Virus record (IMG/VR): IMGVR_UViG_3300038418_000005
Coordinates: 1-28,357 of that record
Origin: a virus
Strand: one strand, 5' to 3'
Length of the DNA: 28,357 nucleotides
The notes beneath the pieces are model-generated. The model did not search any database, was not told the DNA's origin, and was given only the letters and a program-made list of their open reading frames with translations. Numbering within the stretch: position 1 is the first letter of the stretch; each line of letters starts with the position of its first letter. Shown piece after piece: positions 4,046 to 18,189 of this stretch. The position numbers were made by a program, and so were the translations under genes.

Positions 4046-4498
4046 TTGGTAGAAAGAAATAGATACTATACAAGAAAAGAACATGGAATATGTACGGCTT
4101 GTGGAGTGAGTCCTGCCGATGCTCCCAAAATAAGATGTCAAGAATGTAAAGAGAAATTAGATAAGTATCAGAAAGTTCAACATCGAAGAAGAAATAAAGT
4201 TTGTATAGAGAAAGTAAAAGATATTGTTTTTGTTCACTACGGAAAATTTTGCGCCTGTTGTAAATGTACTGAATCAGTTTTTCTTACCTTAGATCATGTC
4301 AATAATGATGGCGCAAAACATAGAAAAGAGATCGGTACTGGAAATCAGGCTTTGTATCGTTGGGTAATCAAAAATAATTTTCCAGATTCAATTCAAGTTT
4401 TGTGTTTTAATTGTAACTGTGGTAAAGCTAAAAACAAAGGAATTTGTCCGCATAAGGTTGGGGGGGATGAAGCTGCAAAAATAAGTCTCACCATTTAG
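4046..4498 (+). CDS. HNH endonuclease (free-standing homing-type)
   Basis: 150-residue zinc-binding HNH nuclease. An N-terminal zinc knuckle (CTACG ... CQEC, residues 16-34) is followed by the HNH core: CACCKC, then LTLDHVNNDGAKHR (catalytic His), LYRWVIKNNFPDSIQVLCFNCN and a closing CPH. This order is characteristic of small phage HNH enzymes that spread as homing endonucleases. No ATG is available; the frame opens after a TGA at 4043 with TTG 4046, with only a weak ribosome-binding site. The gene is more AT-rich than its neighbours and separates the Sak4-like ATPase from the SSB-like gene, consistent with insertion into a recombination operon. Its last 45 nt form part of a predicted RNA structure. 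Confidence 0.83.
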   Translation: MVERNRYYTRKEHGICTACGVSPADAPKIRCQECKEKLDKYQKVQHRRRNKVCIEKVKDIVFVHYGKFCACCKCTESVFLTLDHVNNDGAKHRKEIGTGNQALYRWVIKNNFPDSIQVLCFNCNCGKAKNKGICPHKVGGDEAAKISLTI

Positions 4499-5561: not shown

Positions 5562-5781
5562 CCACATAAAAGGCCACTGGAAACAAGATGCTTATTATCC
5601 CTCTGGCGAGCCATACTCTGACCTGAATTACTATCCCAAAGAAGTCCGCATATGCTATGATTGCCTTCACGGGAAGGGTATCTACCATGATGAACATGGC
5701 TATGTTATGTGTGAGAAGTGTATGCTTAAGAGGGCTGAGAAGTGTGGTGTCAAGCTAGTTTGGATTCCAGATGAAAGTTAG
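5539..5781 (+). CDS. Zinc-ribbon hypothetical protein
   Basis: 80-residue protein from a GTG at 5539. A CYDC pair (residues 38-41) and a CEKC pair (residues 58-61) make a probable zinc ribbon, with histidines between them. Its end overlaps the start of the UDG-like gene, so the two are translationally coupled. Function unknown; it is one of several zinc-ribbon proteins in this early region and may assist DNA or protein binding. Confidence 0.7.
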   Translation: MKKALLHSHIKGHWKQDAYYPSGEPYSDLNYYPKEVRICYDCLHGKGIYHDEHGYVMCEKCMLKRAEKCGVKLVWIPDES

Positions 5782-6265
5782 GGACTGCCCAAAATGTGAG
5801 GGATGTCCTCTCAGGCAAAAATTTCCTGACAACAATCTCTGTCCACCTCGAATGGGTCCTAGCCTCAGAATTGTTGTAGCAGAAGCTCCTGGTGAAGAAG
5901 AATCAATTAAGCTAGAACCCCTCGTTGGTGGGAGCGGTCGAATAGCCCAGTCTATGTATCGTAAAGCTGGTGTGAATTGGGATGAGCTAACTCTAATCAA
6001 TACTATCAATTGCAGACCCCCTGACAATGTATTCCCAACAGATAACAAGGCTCGCTCGTATTGCTCTGAGGCTGAAGGTGAGCAGATCGTCAAGCATTGT
6101 ATCAAGAATCATGTCCTGCCTGTTCTAGAATCCCGTCCGTGGACACGACTAGATATTATTGGAGCGAAGGCTTTATATTGGTTGACAGGTTTGACTTCTA
6201 TTTTCAAGTGGCGTGGTAGCTCGTTGACTGTGGATACAGAAGATGTTCGAAAACGTGTGAGCTAA
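5771..6265 (+). CDS. Uracil-DNA glycosylase-like protein (family 4/5 type), lacking its C-terminal motif
   Basis: 164-residue protein resembling Fe-S-containing family 4/5 uracil-DNA glycosylases, which excise uracil from DNA. Visible parts are an N-terminal CPKCEGC cluster (Cys6, 9, 12), motif 1 AEAPGEEES (residues 37-45), LVGGSGRIAQ (51-60), the LINTINCRPP segment (Cys81) and Cys98. The spacing matches the four cluster cysteines of the family. The late RG and DIIGAKALYWLTG segments are present, but the frame stops before the family's HP-S/A motif. That motif (ATIHPAALMRD) appears at residues 8-18 of the DNA polymerase encoded next, in the -1 frame. The genes overlap as TAATG. The product may be an incomplete enzyme, may assemble with the polymerase, or may be fused to it by frameshifting. 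Confidence 0.8.
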   Translation: MKVRDCPKCEGCPLRQKFPDNNLCPPRMGPSLRIVVAEAPGEEESIKLEPLVGGSGRIAQSMYRKAGVNWDELTLINTINCRPPDNVFPTDNKARSYCSEAEGEQIVKHCIKNHVLPVLESRPWTRLDIIGAKALYWLTGLTSIFKWRGSSLTVDTEDVRKRVS

Positions 6266-8226
6266 TGTCCTTGATTCCCGCTATTGCTACCATCCATCCA
6301 GCCGCACTCATGCGCGACTCTAGCATGATGCCAGCCTGTATCTCAGACTTAATGAAGGGTACTCAAGTCCCACCACAACACTATAACTTAAGCCCAACTT
6401 TAGAAGAGATGGAGGCTTTCCATGCGGAATCTCTGGTCTTTGACATTGAAACGAATAGGTTCACGCAAGACATTACCGTCGTTGGAATCTCTGATCTTAG
6501 ACAACTTTATCATGTCCTTGTCGCCCCCTTTCAAGGGGAGTACGTTAATCAACTCAAACGCATCTTCCTTGAAGCTAAGGAAGTTATAGGCCAGAACATC
6601 ATTGGATTTGATCTCGACCACCTAGCTATAGCAGGTGTAAGGCCACAACCTAACGTCCAAACCTGGGATATCATGCTGATGCACCATTTACTTCAGCCGG
6701 ATGCCCCTCACGACTTAGAGTTTATAGCTTCCGTCTTCACAAACATGGTTGCATGGAAACATCTTAGTCACAGCGATCCTCTATACTACAATGCTTGTGA
6801 TGTGGATGCAACAGCCCAGATATTCAGAGCCATCCTACCACTGTTAAAGATGTATAAGTTGCTCGATCTCTACAATCTAGTCCAAGTCCCAATCGCCAAG
6901 ATATGCAAGATGATGACGGAGACAGGGATTAAGGTTGACAAGAATCGAATCAGGTTTATTCGAGAGAAATTCCAGCTAGAGTTGAATGAATGTGAGACAC
7001 ATCTTCCAGAAGAGTTGAAGCCATATGATAAATCCATCCGTGTTCGTGTGCTTGCTCCCGAAGGAACAGTTGGCAAAAGCGGAAAACTGGTTAAGTACAC
7101 ACATACACCAGGGACAAAACGAGTGGTCCCTTGGGACTCTCCAGCCATCGTCCGACACTGGCTTTACGAAACCATGCACTTTCCCGTCCAACTCCACGCT
7201 CACACAAAAAAGATCACAGCGGATAAGACGGCACTCGACAGGCTGTTCCGTAAGACACAACGCCCAGAGCTAAATGCTCTCCGTAAGGTAAGAGAACTTG
7301 GCACACTTATCTCAACATTCCTACAGGACCCTACCGACGAGCAAGAGCTTGCCGTGGATCGTATTCATACCTCCTTCCTCGTTCATGGGACTAACACTGG
7401 TCGCCTTGCTAGTAGCGGTCCTGATATGCAGAATATTCCTGAAAGAGCCAGATATATTTATGTCCCGTCATATTCGGATTGGTGTTTCGTGGAGGCAGAT
7501 TTTTCAGGTATTGAGAACAGGCTCGCAGCATGGTATGCTAACGACACGGATAGATTGAGACGGCTTTCCGTGCCAGGATTCAGTGAGCATAAGTGGTTGT
7601 GTAATCAGATATTTGGAATCCCTGAGAATGAGGTTGATAAGAAGTCTGATGAATATTGCCGAGCCAAGCATACGAATCACGGTGCTGATGCTGGAATGGG
7701 ACCGCGCAAGATGTCCATCCAGTATAACATTCCTGAGAAGGATTGCAAAGACCTGCTGTTGATGTGGAAGAAGCTGAATGAGAAATCAGTTCAATGGCAG
7801 GAACGAGTTGGGAATACAGCCGTACAGAAAGGTATCTTGACGAATGCTTTTGGTCGTAAGCGATGGTTCTGGTCACAGACGGCTTACACGGAAGGAATCA
7901 GATTCATATTGCAGGGTACTGGCGCTGATATTTGTTTCAGAACTATGATTGGATTGTACTACGAGCGCATCCAATGGCCGATAGAGTTGGCTCTTAAGGT
8001 TTGCCCAATCCTAGCTCCCATTCCATATCCTGCTAGATTAGTTTTGCAAGTCCATGACTCTCTATTGTTTGAGTGTCCATACAATCTCCGTGAAGCTGTA
8101 ATGACTTGTATGAGGACTGTAATGGAACAGCCGTGGAAAGAGTTAGCTGGCTATGCTATACCTGTAGATATCAAAGCAGGTGAGCCAGGAATGTCATGGG
8201 GAGAATTGAAGTTACAGGAGGTTTAG
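6265..8226 (+). CDS. DNA polymerase I family (PolA-type), with N-terminal UDG remnant
   Basis: 653-residue family A replicative polymerase. Residues 8-18 hold a UDG-type HP motif. The proofreading domain has the DEDDy set: FDIETN (Asp60, Glu62), IIGFDLDHL (Asp116) and YYNACD (Tyr185, Asp189). The polymerase domain has TGRLAS and PDMQNIPER (388-405), motif A VEADFSGIENRL (Asp422), O helix RAKHTNHGADAGMG (476-489) and motif C VLQVHDSLLFE (His607-Asp608). Against E. coli Pol I, Lys478 matches K758, His482 matches F762 and Ala486 matches Y766. The first is conserved; the other two are changed. His at 762 is seen in some viral PolA proteins, but Ala for Y766 is unusual. Start ATG 6265 overlaps the UDG-like stop. 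There is no 5' nuclease domain, as usual for phage PolA. Confidence 0.93.
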   Translation: MSLIPAIATIHPAALMRDSSMMPACISDLMKGTQVPPQHYNLSPTLEEMEAFHAESLVFDIETNRFTQDITVVGISDLRQLYHVLVAPFQGEYVNQLKRIFLEAKEVIGQNIIGFDLDHLAIAGVRPQPNVQTWDIMLMHHLLQPDAPHDLEFIASVFTNMVAWKHLSHSDPLYYNACDVDATAQIFRAILPLLKMYKLLDLYNLVQVPIAKICKMMTETGIKVDKNRIRFIREKFQLELNECETHLPEELKPYDKSIRVRVLAPEGTVGKSGKLVKYTHTPGTKRVVPWDSPAIVRHWLYETMHFPVQLHAHTKKITADKTALDRLFRKTQRPELNALRKVRELGTLISTFLQDPTDEQELAVDRIHTSFLVHGTNTGRLASSGPDMQNIPERARYIYVPSYSDWCFVEADFSGIENRLAAWYANDTDRLRRLSVPGFSEHKWLCNQIFGIPENEVDKKSDEYCRAKHTNHGADAGMGPRKMSIQYNIPEKDCKDLLLMWKKLNEKSVQWQERVGNTAVQKGILTNAFGRKRWFWSQTAYTEGIRFILQGTGADICFRTMIGLYYERIQWPIELALKVCPILAPIPYPARLVLQVHDSLLFECPYNLREAVMTCMRTVMEQPWKELAGYAIPVDIKAGEPGMSWGELKLQEV

Positions 8227-15200: not shown

Positions 15201-18189
15201 AGCTTTTGAGACTTATATCATGCATGTTAAGAAGCGGTGTTATCTTACCAAAGGCTTCACGGACTGGCTTAAGATGCATCAGGGCTGGCGATACCGCACC
15301 AAGGAACGCTCCAACTGTTCCTCCAATAACAGCACCAGGAGCGCCGCCAAGCGCCCCACCAGCAGCAACTCCAGCAACCCCACCAAGGCCCATTCCACCC
15401 ATTATCTCTATGCCACGAGCGACACCGGCCTCTTCAGGAATCTTTAGGAAGTTCCTTTGCTTAGCAATCTCCTGTGAAAGATTTTCCCATCCAGCATCAA
15501 GCATAAGAGAATGCATACGATCAGGTCCACGAGTGTCAATTACCATCGCATGACCGTTGGAACCATACCACCAACTTGCATTCTCAATCGTACTTATAGT
15601 CTTAGGATCAAGTTTCCAAGCTTCAAATGCAGTAGGACTAACAACACGGAGCCATCCATTATCTAGCATGGCACGCATGGCGCTGCCAAGTTTGTCAGTT
15701 TCAGGCAGTAGAGCAGCAGCAATTGCATTGTGGCTCTGGCCGTGTCCACTGCCAATATATACTTTCCCATCAGCTGAGAGCCAGCCATCTTGTCCGGGTG
15801 GGCTGTCAAACGTTACCTTTTTAGGCTCCAGTCCAAGAGCGGCTGCACGTTCAAATATATGTCCGCTAGAGAAGTCTTGTTCTTCAACTGGAATGGCTGA
15901 TGGGAATTGAACATTTTTTACTCCAACAGCCCCACGTTCCTTGTTGCCACGACGGGCGATGATGTCATCAATTGTATCTACGAGTGACTGATGGAGTTTG
16001 GCTCGCTGATTCAGTTCATTGGCTCTTGCTTCTAACTCTTCGTTAGTGGGGATAGTATGAACCTTACGGCCCATTATTTGAGAGGCACGCTTAAGGTTCA
16101 TGTCCTCATATGGAGCCATTTCACGAACTGTGCCATCAGGATTAACAACAGGCTGAAGTGGTCGGCGACCATGTGTAATGTCTGAGGGGAATTTGCCGAT
16201 TGCTCTAGCATCCCTTTCCAGTTCATTTATCCGACTATTTATACCAGAAGTCTCCCAATCTGCCCCTGTATCTCCAGCAATGGTAATATCATCACGAAGC
16301 TTGTTGTATCTTTCGACGACGTTCTGCTTCATTTTCTCTAAGAAGGCAATCCTAGCAGTATCATCCATACCAGGGACTTTAGTATGACTATAATCTAACA
16401 TGTCTGGCGTAACTCTTGGCACTTGACCAACTGCTACAGATCGCAAACTTCGACCAAGAACGCGAACATCTGCATGCCGTTCTACTGGAATAATCTTATC
16501 AGTCTCAGGGTCAATTTGAAAGCCTTCCTTGGTATAGCCAACAGCCTTCTCTTCAACCATCAATCTACGTTGGTCGGCACCCCGTTGGGCTATATCAATT
16601 GCTTGCCTAATAAAATCTGCTTGTTTACCAGTCTTATCCGCCACATCAGCAAGCTGGTTACGCATGTCAAAAAGCTCAGTGCTACTAAGCTTACCAAAGT
16701 CAGCAGCAATTTCTGCTTTGGCTTTTTCGACATCAATAACAGGAGCAGCGAACTTCGCACGAGTCTCAGCGAGGGACGTTATACTATCCTGAATAGGCTC
16801 AGGTAGAGCTTTAGCTTCAGGAGTTGGAATAGGTTCAGGAGCTTGAACAGCTTCCGGCGTTTTATCCTCTTTAGGAAGTAGATCTGTGCTACGAGTCTTT
16901 GGGAAGTTGAACCACACATATCCATCACTATACACTGCCTCGACTACATCTTTAGGTGTTAAAGCCGCACCAGGACGCCGAGCTTCTGGTAGAGCCGCTG
17001 TTTCAACTCGGGAAACTCTCGGACGCGGTGGAGCTATGACTTCTGGGATTGGAACGGCAGAGACACTCTGGGACGGTGGTGCTGGAACGGGAGCTTCCTT
17101 AGCTTCAGGTCGCTCGATTACAGCAGCGGACCTAGCTTCAACAGGCGGTGCCTTAGAAAATGAGTCAGCCCGTTCTGCTGAAACATTACGAGTCTTTGGG
17201 AAGTTGAACCACACATATCCATCACTATACACTGCCTCGACTACATCTTTAGGTGTTAAAGCCGCACCAGGACGCCGAGCTTCTGGCCGTTCTGCTGAAA
17301 CATTACGAGTGCCTTGATCTATGCGAGTTCTCGATTGGAGCCATCCAACATCAGGCCCACCGACACCTTGAGCACCAGCATAGTTAACCGCAGCTTCATA
17401 GGCAGCACGTTCACCAGATGGGGCGCTCTTGATAAACTCTTCGTATGACGAAAGCTTAGGGCCACCAGTTATGGCATGTTGGGCTGAAAGCTTTGCCATC
17501 CATGCTCCTTCGAGCATCTGGGTAGCAATACGTTGACATTCGGGAATGTCATTTGCTTTCCAAGCTGCCATAAACTGTGGAGATTGTTGCAATACCCCAT
17601 GAGCTATAGCAGCAGTGAAGCCCCAACTAATGAGCTTTGATTGCGGCAATCCTAACATTAGGAGCATGTTCTCAGGCGTAGATAGCCCACTAGCCATCTG
17701 AAGTGTGCCAGTGATCATAGGGTGCTTCCGCTGTTCGCTTGGAGACAGGAATTGTTCAGGAGCTATAAGCTGTTCGGCATGTTGCTGATAAGAAGGAGAA
17801 TAGACAGTTTCCCTTGGCTCAAGTCCAAGGGCTTTAGACACTGAGGGTAGTTGAGATTGAAGGGCTCGACCGACCGCTGAATCTGCAACAGTAGCAGTCA
17901 ATCGGTCATAGATTGAAGGTGAAGGAGCCGCACCCATTGTAGGCCCTTGCGAAATACCAGGACCCACTTTAGGTGGGGCTATTGAAGTAGATGGTGCAGC
18001 TAAGATTTGATGTGCAGGAGCTTGAGAGAGAGCTTGCCCTCTCAAGTGAGCAAGGTACACTTCCTGATCTGAAGCACCAGCCTTGGCAAAGTCAGGATCA
18101 TTAGCGAGCAAGTATGCCCGTTGATCTTCTGGCTTTGAAGCTAGGAAGTCCTTGTCTTGCGTATAATCATATTGCTGCTGTTGAGTCAT
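12214..18189 (-). CDS. Giant internal virion / ejection protein with LPD38-like domain
   Basis: 1991 residues. The N-terminus (DYTQDKDFLASKPEDQRAY) contains short helical motifs. Pro/Ala-rich linkers (about 60-110 and 280-490) follow, with a 33-residue module repeated exactly at 302-334 and 401-433. A helical region comes next, then a glycine-zipper helix (about 926-966). Residues about 1480-1620 match the large polyvalent protein-associated domain LPD38 (FNAAMEDAIKMTHFQRLREM, then LLFMFFNAKLQDTTRVF). A second glycine zipper lies at about 1766-1806. Such proteins are packaged and ejected, and glycine zippers suit membrane insertion. It is the last gene of the late operon, the place of T7 gp16. 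ATG 18189 overlaps the upstream stop as TAATG. No lytic transglycosylase motif is recognised. Confidence 0.85.
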   Translation of the reverse strand: MTQQQQYDYTQDKDFLASKPEDQRAYLLANDPDFAKAGASDQEVYLAHLRGQALSQAPAHQILAAPSTSIAPPKVGPGISQGPTMGAAPSPSIYDRLTATVADSAVGRALQSQLPSVSKALGLEPRETVYSPSYQQHAEQLIAPEQFLSPSEQRKHPMITGTLQMASGLSTPENMLLMLGLPQSKLISWGFTAAIAHGVLQQSPQFMAAWKANDIPECQRIATQMLEGAWMAKLSAQHAITGGPKLSSYEEFIKSAPSGERAAYEAAVNYAGAQGVGGPDVGWLQSRTRIDQGTRNVSAERPEARRPGAALTPKDVVEAVYSDGYVWFNFPKTRNVSAERADSFSKAPPVEARSAAVIERPEAKEAPVPAPPSQSVSAVPIPEVIAPPRPRVSRVETAALPEARRPGAALTPKDVVEAVYSDGYVWFNFPKTRSTDLLPKEDKTPEAVQAPEPIPTPEAKALPEPIQDSITSLAETRAKFAAPVIDVEKAKAEIAADFGKLSSTELFDMRNQLADVADKTGKQADFIRQAIDIAQRGADQRRLMVEEKAVGYTKEGFQIDPETDKIIPVERHADVRVLGRSLRSVAVGQVPRVTPDMLDYSHTKVPGMDDTARIAFLEKMKQNVVERYNKLRDDITIAGDTGADWETSGINSRINELERDARAIGKFPSDITHGRRPLQPVVNPDGTVREMAPYEDMNLKRASQIMGRKVHTIPTNEELEARANELNQRAKLHQSLVDTIDDIIARRGNKERGAVGVKNVQFPSAIPVEEQDFSSGHIFERAAALGLEPKKVTFDSPPGQDGWLSADGKVYIGSGHGQSHNAIAAALLPETDKLGSAMRAMLDNGWLRVVSPTAFEAWKLDPKTISTIENASWWYGSNGHAMVIDTRGPDRMHSLMLDAGWENLSQEIAKQRNFLKIPEEAGVARGIEIMGGMGLGGVAGVAAGGALGGAPGAVIGGTVGAFLGAVSPALMHLKPVREAFGKITPLLNMHDISLKSWLEGPKQEPAINPDMREIQAKQQRSMAGPDFDFTKRLVQLPGEIQRKLIDRFVFVNDHPGPLNNLILRLIKAPGQAFRDLRGNLSVDDSPYVTIRSALGLSGGAQAMHNLGYSKIIEEAQKGGIANYLYEYLNLKGGFERTYDILNERLGRAKSDIQDINTKLQDPNLSIRQKVALEDDLAEAKAVQEHMEYRIGSGEATPMGFTPEKTQRALGDMQAIISPEKFKAVTDLANRVFDQNRTILDMIHQNGLIGDDEYQTYIARGNEYIPMTRIMDDMSANTLRFQGKESPYYLRQQNVIKALEGSERVPKNPIQASADANGEAIREVVRNNVIGDFLKLAHDDPKGVGSYFTPVSADYKAKAGEALVGHYENGVVKTYSVPDWLGQTLQNASPITNDLMGGVMARWTAQVLRKGATAGNLAYTSMRAIRDTMGAAILSEGGIRKETPLKDIQQLGTLWAKNLYESLSKGPAWQEYMKSGGAFGVLQRNITPDHFISLDNLGWTGKLAKGRMIDTVSDFNAAMEDAIKMTHFQRLREMGYSVKAAQWEMRRYGGAPDYSRAGELGPVANLLFMFFNAKLQDTTRVFAKFAENPARMSVFLGGLTAMAMTLAEHNIQQKDENGKPLMPRVSVGDRERNFCFLTGQTYQSSSGATLPIYYKIPKPDVVRILVNPIENTLNKLGGRETRSGEQLALDEISGMIPGQFALKEGHLGKTALQGAASALNPALRIPAEQFMNYQFAGTGGPIVPEREQGIDPRYQYGIGTSAVARTMGEGGLPGAGAGAAMGGAMGGMYYGVPGALVAGGIGAAVGAAGLSPRRIDAFMRGTTAGAGEIATTALDPFMGQRTKEVQGPEAWRQQPGIGPIISRFVSSPMDQQEHDLQDRFYNNIDKVTPAYKTFKDLEKRDPDEAGRYLAANRDSIQKGSLAVKMQEKLAYINSMQRQLEQNPQVSPQDRQKYLKNMHDAKLNILQAFVGILEPTPSGNVNTGWSPMGTTAK
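16890..16989. repeat. Direct repeat copy 1 (100 bp, exact)
   Basis: Identical base for base to 17187-17286; it encodes residues 401-433 of the giant protein. The module contains YSDGYVWFNFPK and is flanked by proline-rich linker. This copy lacks the 24-bp flanking sequence present on both sides of copy 2. Confidence 0.95.
17187..17286. repeat. Direct repeat copy 2 (100 bp, exact)
   Basis: Second identical copy, 297 bp from the first, encoding residues 302-334. A 24-bp sequence (starting CCGTTCTGCTGAAACATTAC) occurs at both of its ends, at 17170-17193 and 17287-17310, encoding the peptide NVSAER on either side. The perfect identity implies recent duplication, gene conversion, or an assembly artefact. 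Confidence 0.95.

Follow-up and report, generated by a model that had tools for sequence, protein, structure and literature searches.

How a single uracil-DNA glycosylase (UDG) domain came to be encoded by two overlapping genes, and whether its two parts still work together, is the question raised by this locus. Polymerases of SPO1-type phages have the domain order UDG, 3'-5' exonuclease, polymerase. In the window (the whole stretch of DNA analysed, a 28 kb virus record), an ORF of 164 aa (ORF1) is instead followed by a separate 653-aa family A DNA polymerase (ORF2), and the UDG fold is distributed over both.

A UDG fold encoded by two overlapping genes

Both ORFs are on the + strand, as are all features given below. 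ORF1 (5771..6265) is identified as a truncated family-4-type UDG gene by profile matches and by relatives in which it forms one ORF with the polymerase; ORF2 (6265..8226) matches PF00476 (E = 3.4e-44) and PF01612 (E = 2e-4). Stop and start overlap in TAATG (6263..6267), with one base in common, which places ORF2 in the -1 frame relative to ORF1 and suggests that the two are coupled in translation. ORF1 carries the Fe-S cysteines C9 and C12 (CEGC, 5795..5806; columns kept in 34/35 relatives), C81 (CRPP, 6011..6013; 35/35) and C110 (KHC, 6098..6100; 34/35), and UDG motif 1 (EAPG, residues 38-41, 5882..5893), as read from its translation and the alignment of relatives. UDG motif 2, or HP motif (ATIHPAALMRD), lies by sequence and alignment at residues 8-18 of the polymerase (6286..6318). 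The arrangement agrees with an earlier note on this DNA, which had placed motif 1 and the cysteines in the first protein and the HP motif in the second, in the -1 frame behind a TAATG overlap, and the further one-base overlaps that it listed at 18189 and 22622 are both present.

ORF1 stops inside a beta-hairpin, and the last strand, HP motif and C-terminal helix of the UDG fold, which make up its C-terminal part, form the first ~30 residues of the polymerase. At the junction the UDG ends KWRGSSLTVDTEDVRKRVS before its stop codon and the polymerase begins MSLIPAIATIHPAALMRD; the last residues of ORF1 form a novel C-terminal tail (SLTVDTEDVRKRVS, 6221..6262), and the distance from the WRG codon to the HP codon is 86 nt compared with 60 nt in most relatives, making the junction 26 nt longer.

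Profile searches reflected this division. ORF1 matched only the first part of PF03167 (E = 0.0049, profile 11-69 of 141) and of the NCBIfam type-4 UDG profile (E = 1.5e-12, 9-107 of 184), whereas the UDG_fam4 match of a fused relative (L005) reached profile position 166 of 173. ORF1 scored 47 bits on TIGR00758 against a cut-off of 125, and its UdgX match was much weaker than that to family 4. Of the features expected of a family 4 UDG, the four Fe-S cysteines are present by sequence (the cluster itself is predicted), and motifs 1 and 2 are not in one protein, motif 2 being in the polymerase ORF. ORF2 exceeded the PF00476 cut-off (151.8 vs 34.3 bits) and fell just under that of PF01612 (21.7 vs 23.6 bits), and was counted as having both polymerase and 3'-5' exonuclease domains.

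In an AlphaFold model of fused L005, the break site corresponds to the turn between strands 152-154 and 161-166. The isolated UDG domain of this model matched family 4 UDGs, including 1ui1, with Z scores of ~22 (for Thermus thermophilus 1ui0 and Thermotoga maritima 1vk2, rmsd 2.3-2.7 over 171-174 residues), so that the fold assignment refers to L005. The Fe-S cysteines, EAPG and HP motifs are shared with these enzymes; ORF1 of the window alone differs from them in lacking the last strand, HP motif and last helix. Elsewhere in the window polymerase, motif B (7664-7720) reads HGADAGMG, with the conserved Tyr replaced by Ala, as also in L005. This is unusual among family A polymerases; other small residues occur at this position in L003 and L004, and NYG is kept in L006, L007, L011 and L020.

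Ancestry of the divided gene

Among the relatives fetched, the UDG and HP motif lie in one uninterrupted reading frame in 42 distinct ORFs of close relatives (matching the family profile at E < 1e-100). With both parts in one continuous ORF in so many relatives, chance is excluded, and by sequence ORF1 is the N-terminal part of an ancestral UDG-exonuclease-polymerase. Only the window lineage (with two sibling contigs) and a distant relative, L076, are broken at the hairpin among the relatives fetched. The polymerase tree pairs the window with the fused L014 as sisters (support 100/99) and puts L076 in another clade; the break therefore arose at least twice or moved horizontally. The L014 gene is continuous over the UDG, HP motif and exonuclease part, after which its contig ends inside the polymerase. 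Sequence comparison thus shows fusion to be the ancestral state of a single gene that was later split, and the suggestion of a split fusion in the earlier note, which had called for one-gene and two-gene forms to be compared among related phages, holds for all close relatives recovered outside the two split lineages. Relatives in bacterial genomes were mostly free-standing UDGs, with a few far polymerases among them, and none was split at the hairpin site.

Farther phage polymerases are also fused (BK063670, phiLo and PaBG gp205, PMC7412058). PaBG gp205 and the phiLo protein have the same order of UDG, 3'-5' exonuclease and polymerase, with a family-4-type UDG, but are single polypeptides where the window has two; the family A polymerase of Thermus phage phiLo, including its UDG-like part, has been solved (PDB 9qhs).

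A nuclease gene at the same hairpin and the origin of the split

In L076, the gene is split at the same hairpin as in the window by a LAGLIDADG-type homing-endonuclease gene. The UDG ORF of L076 ends KWRGSPITIDTNEIEQRVRD before its stop codon, and the tail of this truncated UDG (ITIDTNEIEQRVRD) resembles that of the window (LTVDTEDVRKRVS), each running up to the stop; no fused relative carries a tail like these. The nuclease gene (151 codons, AYCAGLFDGEGCI) overlaps the UDG end with its start and the TTG start of the polymerase with its stop (TTGA), and the polymerase then begins MKFKAISIIHPSALMRE. Its product matched phrog_5046 (E = 4e-27) and PF00961 LAGLIDADG_1 (E = 0.0012, under the Pfam LAGLIDADG cut-offs), and is 35% identical to proteins annotated as LAGLIDADG endonucleases from Streptomyces phages.

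The window and L076 tails aligned with a score of 34; the other 34 relatives reached at most 15 (mean -1, sd 8). Only 1 of 100,000 shuffles was as good, a figure to be read as a guide rather than a pre-planned test since the resemblance had already been noticed when the comparison was set up. A search for WRG..T[IV]DT across 2.9 million viral contigs found the pattern together with a UDG domain in no lineages but those of the window and L076. Elsewhere, L076 and the window are ~50% (UDG) and 41% (exonuclease part) identical; in the tail DNA 31/57 nt are alike, compared with 20-28 for four fused relatives. A common origin of the two tails is likely on these sequence comparisons, although the modest DNA likeness leaves shared descent unproved and convergence possible. 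A sliding comparison of the window and L076 gave no clear peak around the junction that would mark a co-conversion tract, and a candidate nucleotide remnant of the nuclease in the window (reading KMFENV before a stop, vaguely like MKLNNVSETD of L076) was rejected as too weak. LAGLIDADG-type genes akin to that of L076 also stand directly after complete T7-like polymerase genes on many contigs (L129-L158); a split of these polymerases was considered and discarded, as they are complete before the nuclease begins.

The reading that we favour, at a probability of roughly 60%, is fission mediated by a homing endonuclease that has since been lost, leaving halves that are coupled in translation and probably reassemble. 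An ancestral single gene for UDG, 3'-5' exonuclease and family A polymerase would have been cut inside the UDG beta-hairpin, where the WRGS strand joins the HP-motif strand, and the likely agent is a free-standing LAGLIDADG-type gene inserted at this hairpin, of the kind still visible in L076. The insert would have supplied a new stop-bearing tail to the UDG half and a start codon to the polymerase half; in the window lineage, loss of the nuclease would then have left the 26-nt longer junction and the TAATG overlap, through which translation of the polymerase may be coupled to that of the UDG gene. Homologues are continuous ORFs, as fission of this kind presupposes, and no intron or intein that would restore the product is present in the window. 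Counting against a nuclease origin, a nuclease gene lies between the halves at the L076 site but none remains at the window junction, and because L076 and the window are not sisters, the reading needs either a horizontal transfer or two independent insertions.

Several simpler accounts of the junction were weighed against this one. A single frame change would suffice to part the ORFs, so a sequencing or assembly indel might have produced them; yet two IMG/VR contigs from other metagenomes (3300038450_000009 and 3300040942_000001) have a junction identical to that of the window. Their alignments with the window, 9870 and 12785 bases long, contain 4 and 2 SNPs, respectively, and the block spanning the junction is ungapped. 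Agreement among three assemblies that SNPs tell apart, 26 extra bases instead of one, and the TAATG overlap reduce the chance of an error to almost nothing, in keeping with the view of the earlier note that the join is not necessarily an error and with its proposal of translational coupling, which the same contigs and overlap support. Programmed -1 frameshifting, which would join the ORFs into one UDG-polymerase at some frequency and was also raised in that note, is very improbable. ORF2 does lie in the -1 frame, which is open into the polymerase from an A AAA C run (at 6250-6254, two bases from the position the note gave), but no X_XXY_YYZ heptamer was found in frame before the 0-frame stop, the lone A4 (6250-6253) would make a poor slippage site, the polymerase can start from an ATG of its own that overlaps the UDG stop, the junction is longer by 26 bases, and in L076, the only other lineage found broken at this site, an entire nuclease gene separates the halves. 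The split and the coupling proposed in the note thus stand and the frameshift does not, and a homing-endonuclease insertion at the hairpin, the likely cause, had been missed.

A nuclease-free origin, in which a small insertion of the ordinary kind (net +26 nt) split the hairpin, the TAATG restart made the break tolerable and the likeness to the L076 tail is due to chance or convergence, is unlikely though worth keeping in view: hairpin loop length varies freely among fused relatives, the tail DNA likeness is modest (31/57) and the window has no remaining nuclease. Against it are a tail score more than twice the best among 34 other relatives, the confinement of the tail pattern with a UDG to the two split lineages, and the actual nuclease at the same hairpin in L076. 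It is also improbable that the UDG half is a dying remnant beside a polymerase that alone matters. In favour of this, some fused relatives (L011, L015) have degenerate UDG motifs, an indication that the domain can be done without; in L011 (2668-4929) the UDG of the fused polymerase is badly degenerate, with the N-terminal cysteines gone and HP changed to DP. The window UDG, however, keeps 34/37 conserved columns, with the four Fe-S cysteines, motif 1 and the Asn before CRPP in ORF1 and HP in the polymerase chain, and its divergence is no greater than that of fused relatives (65% identity between the window and L005, 60% between L014 and L005). From these conserved residues and a UDG half that shows no excess divergence, we infer that the halves still work together in the favoured reading of fission by a homing endonuclease.

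Other insertions, known split genes and what the split may mean

The same polymerase gene is interrupted at other places. Endo-VII/HNH genes split the exonuclease domain in L071 (2915-3370; PF02945 E = 3e-22) and L078 (3859-4242; E = 2e-19). L071 and L078 belong to different clades, and their insertion points nearly coincide (profile positions 277-286). Homing endonucleases of the Endo-VII type are known (F-CphI, PMC6083498). A UDG-polymerase of 1105 codons in L008 (2515-5829, contig 3300047462_000272) has an intein-like insert at motif B, starting CVTGDHEVLTSQGW (CVTGDHEVLT) and ending YFLCRYKDTVFVSGN (VFVSGN) before Ser. In L026 (MW202554.1, 1727-4364), a phage UDG-polymerase is annotated as two genes with the break between exonuclease and polymerase parts. 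Near the split in the window, though not part of it, an HNH-type nuclease ORF (4046..4498) lies ~1.3-1.7 kb upstream of the UDG gene; ~316 bases of it are missing in the near-identical L022, and this deletion of most of the ORF in a sibling indicates that nuclease genes come and go in the phage population of the window. Searched against Rfam, the window region (L017), L076, L071 and L078 had no match at E <= 1, on which ground a group I/II intron in the latter three was rejected, and the extra 26 nt of the window are too short for an intron. A split intein at the window junction was rejected, as no intein-like sequence was seen there and a tail of 14 aa could not accommodate half an intein.

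Fission of phage genes is already known as a kind, and the window is a new instance. In Aeromonas phage Aeh1, nrdA is split by mobE into nrdA-a and nrdA-b and is fully functional as two chains, and gp43A/B from the split gene 43 of phage 25 co-purify and polymerise; T4 topoisomerase gene 60 (mobA) and gene 43 of 44RR are further splits (PMC2988022). As in these, a single phage replication gene is divided into two coding parts, a homing endonuclease is associated with the division, and the chains stay separate, with no splicing; gene 43 of 44RR is, like the window, split without a nuclease, and the start of T4 mobE lies in a UAAUG overlap (PMC2988022) similar in kind to the TAATG here. The window differs in that its gene encodes a UDG-containing family A polymerase and is cut through the UDG active-site fold, and in that the candidate nuclease (in L076) is LAGLIDADG-type rather than HNH or GIY-YIG; association of its chains is a prediction here. 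As far as the account of Dassa et al. (2009) given in PMC6892783 goes, fractured genes with split inteins include phage DNA polymerase genes cut by a nuclease gene, a likeness to the window, which differs from them in its tail length.

The two chains would probably reassemble by hairpin complementation, with the polymerase chain giving the HP motif to the UDG active site. Uracil sensing tethered to the replisome, which the earlier note had proposed for associated halves, is a hypothesis of the same kind. A stronger version, in which the UDG chain needs the polymerase N-terminus for both fold and HP, so that a domesticated nuclease scar yields a composite active site in trans, is put forward tentatively, at somewhat less than even odds; if true, uracil recognition would be possible only when the UDG chain is docked on the polymerase, whether as glycosylase activity or as uracil binding. 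One gene thus offers a natural series of fused (42 forms), nuclease-inserted (L076) and split, nuclease-free (window) states, is also broken elsewhere by other nucleases and carries an intein-like insert in L008, which opens fission by nuclease genes, and its subsequent repair or domestication, to direct testing. A UDG that is naturally split, with its missing piece on the polymerase, may likewise provide a handle on the role of the UDG-like domain of phage polymerases.
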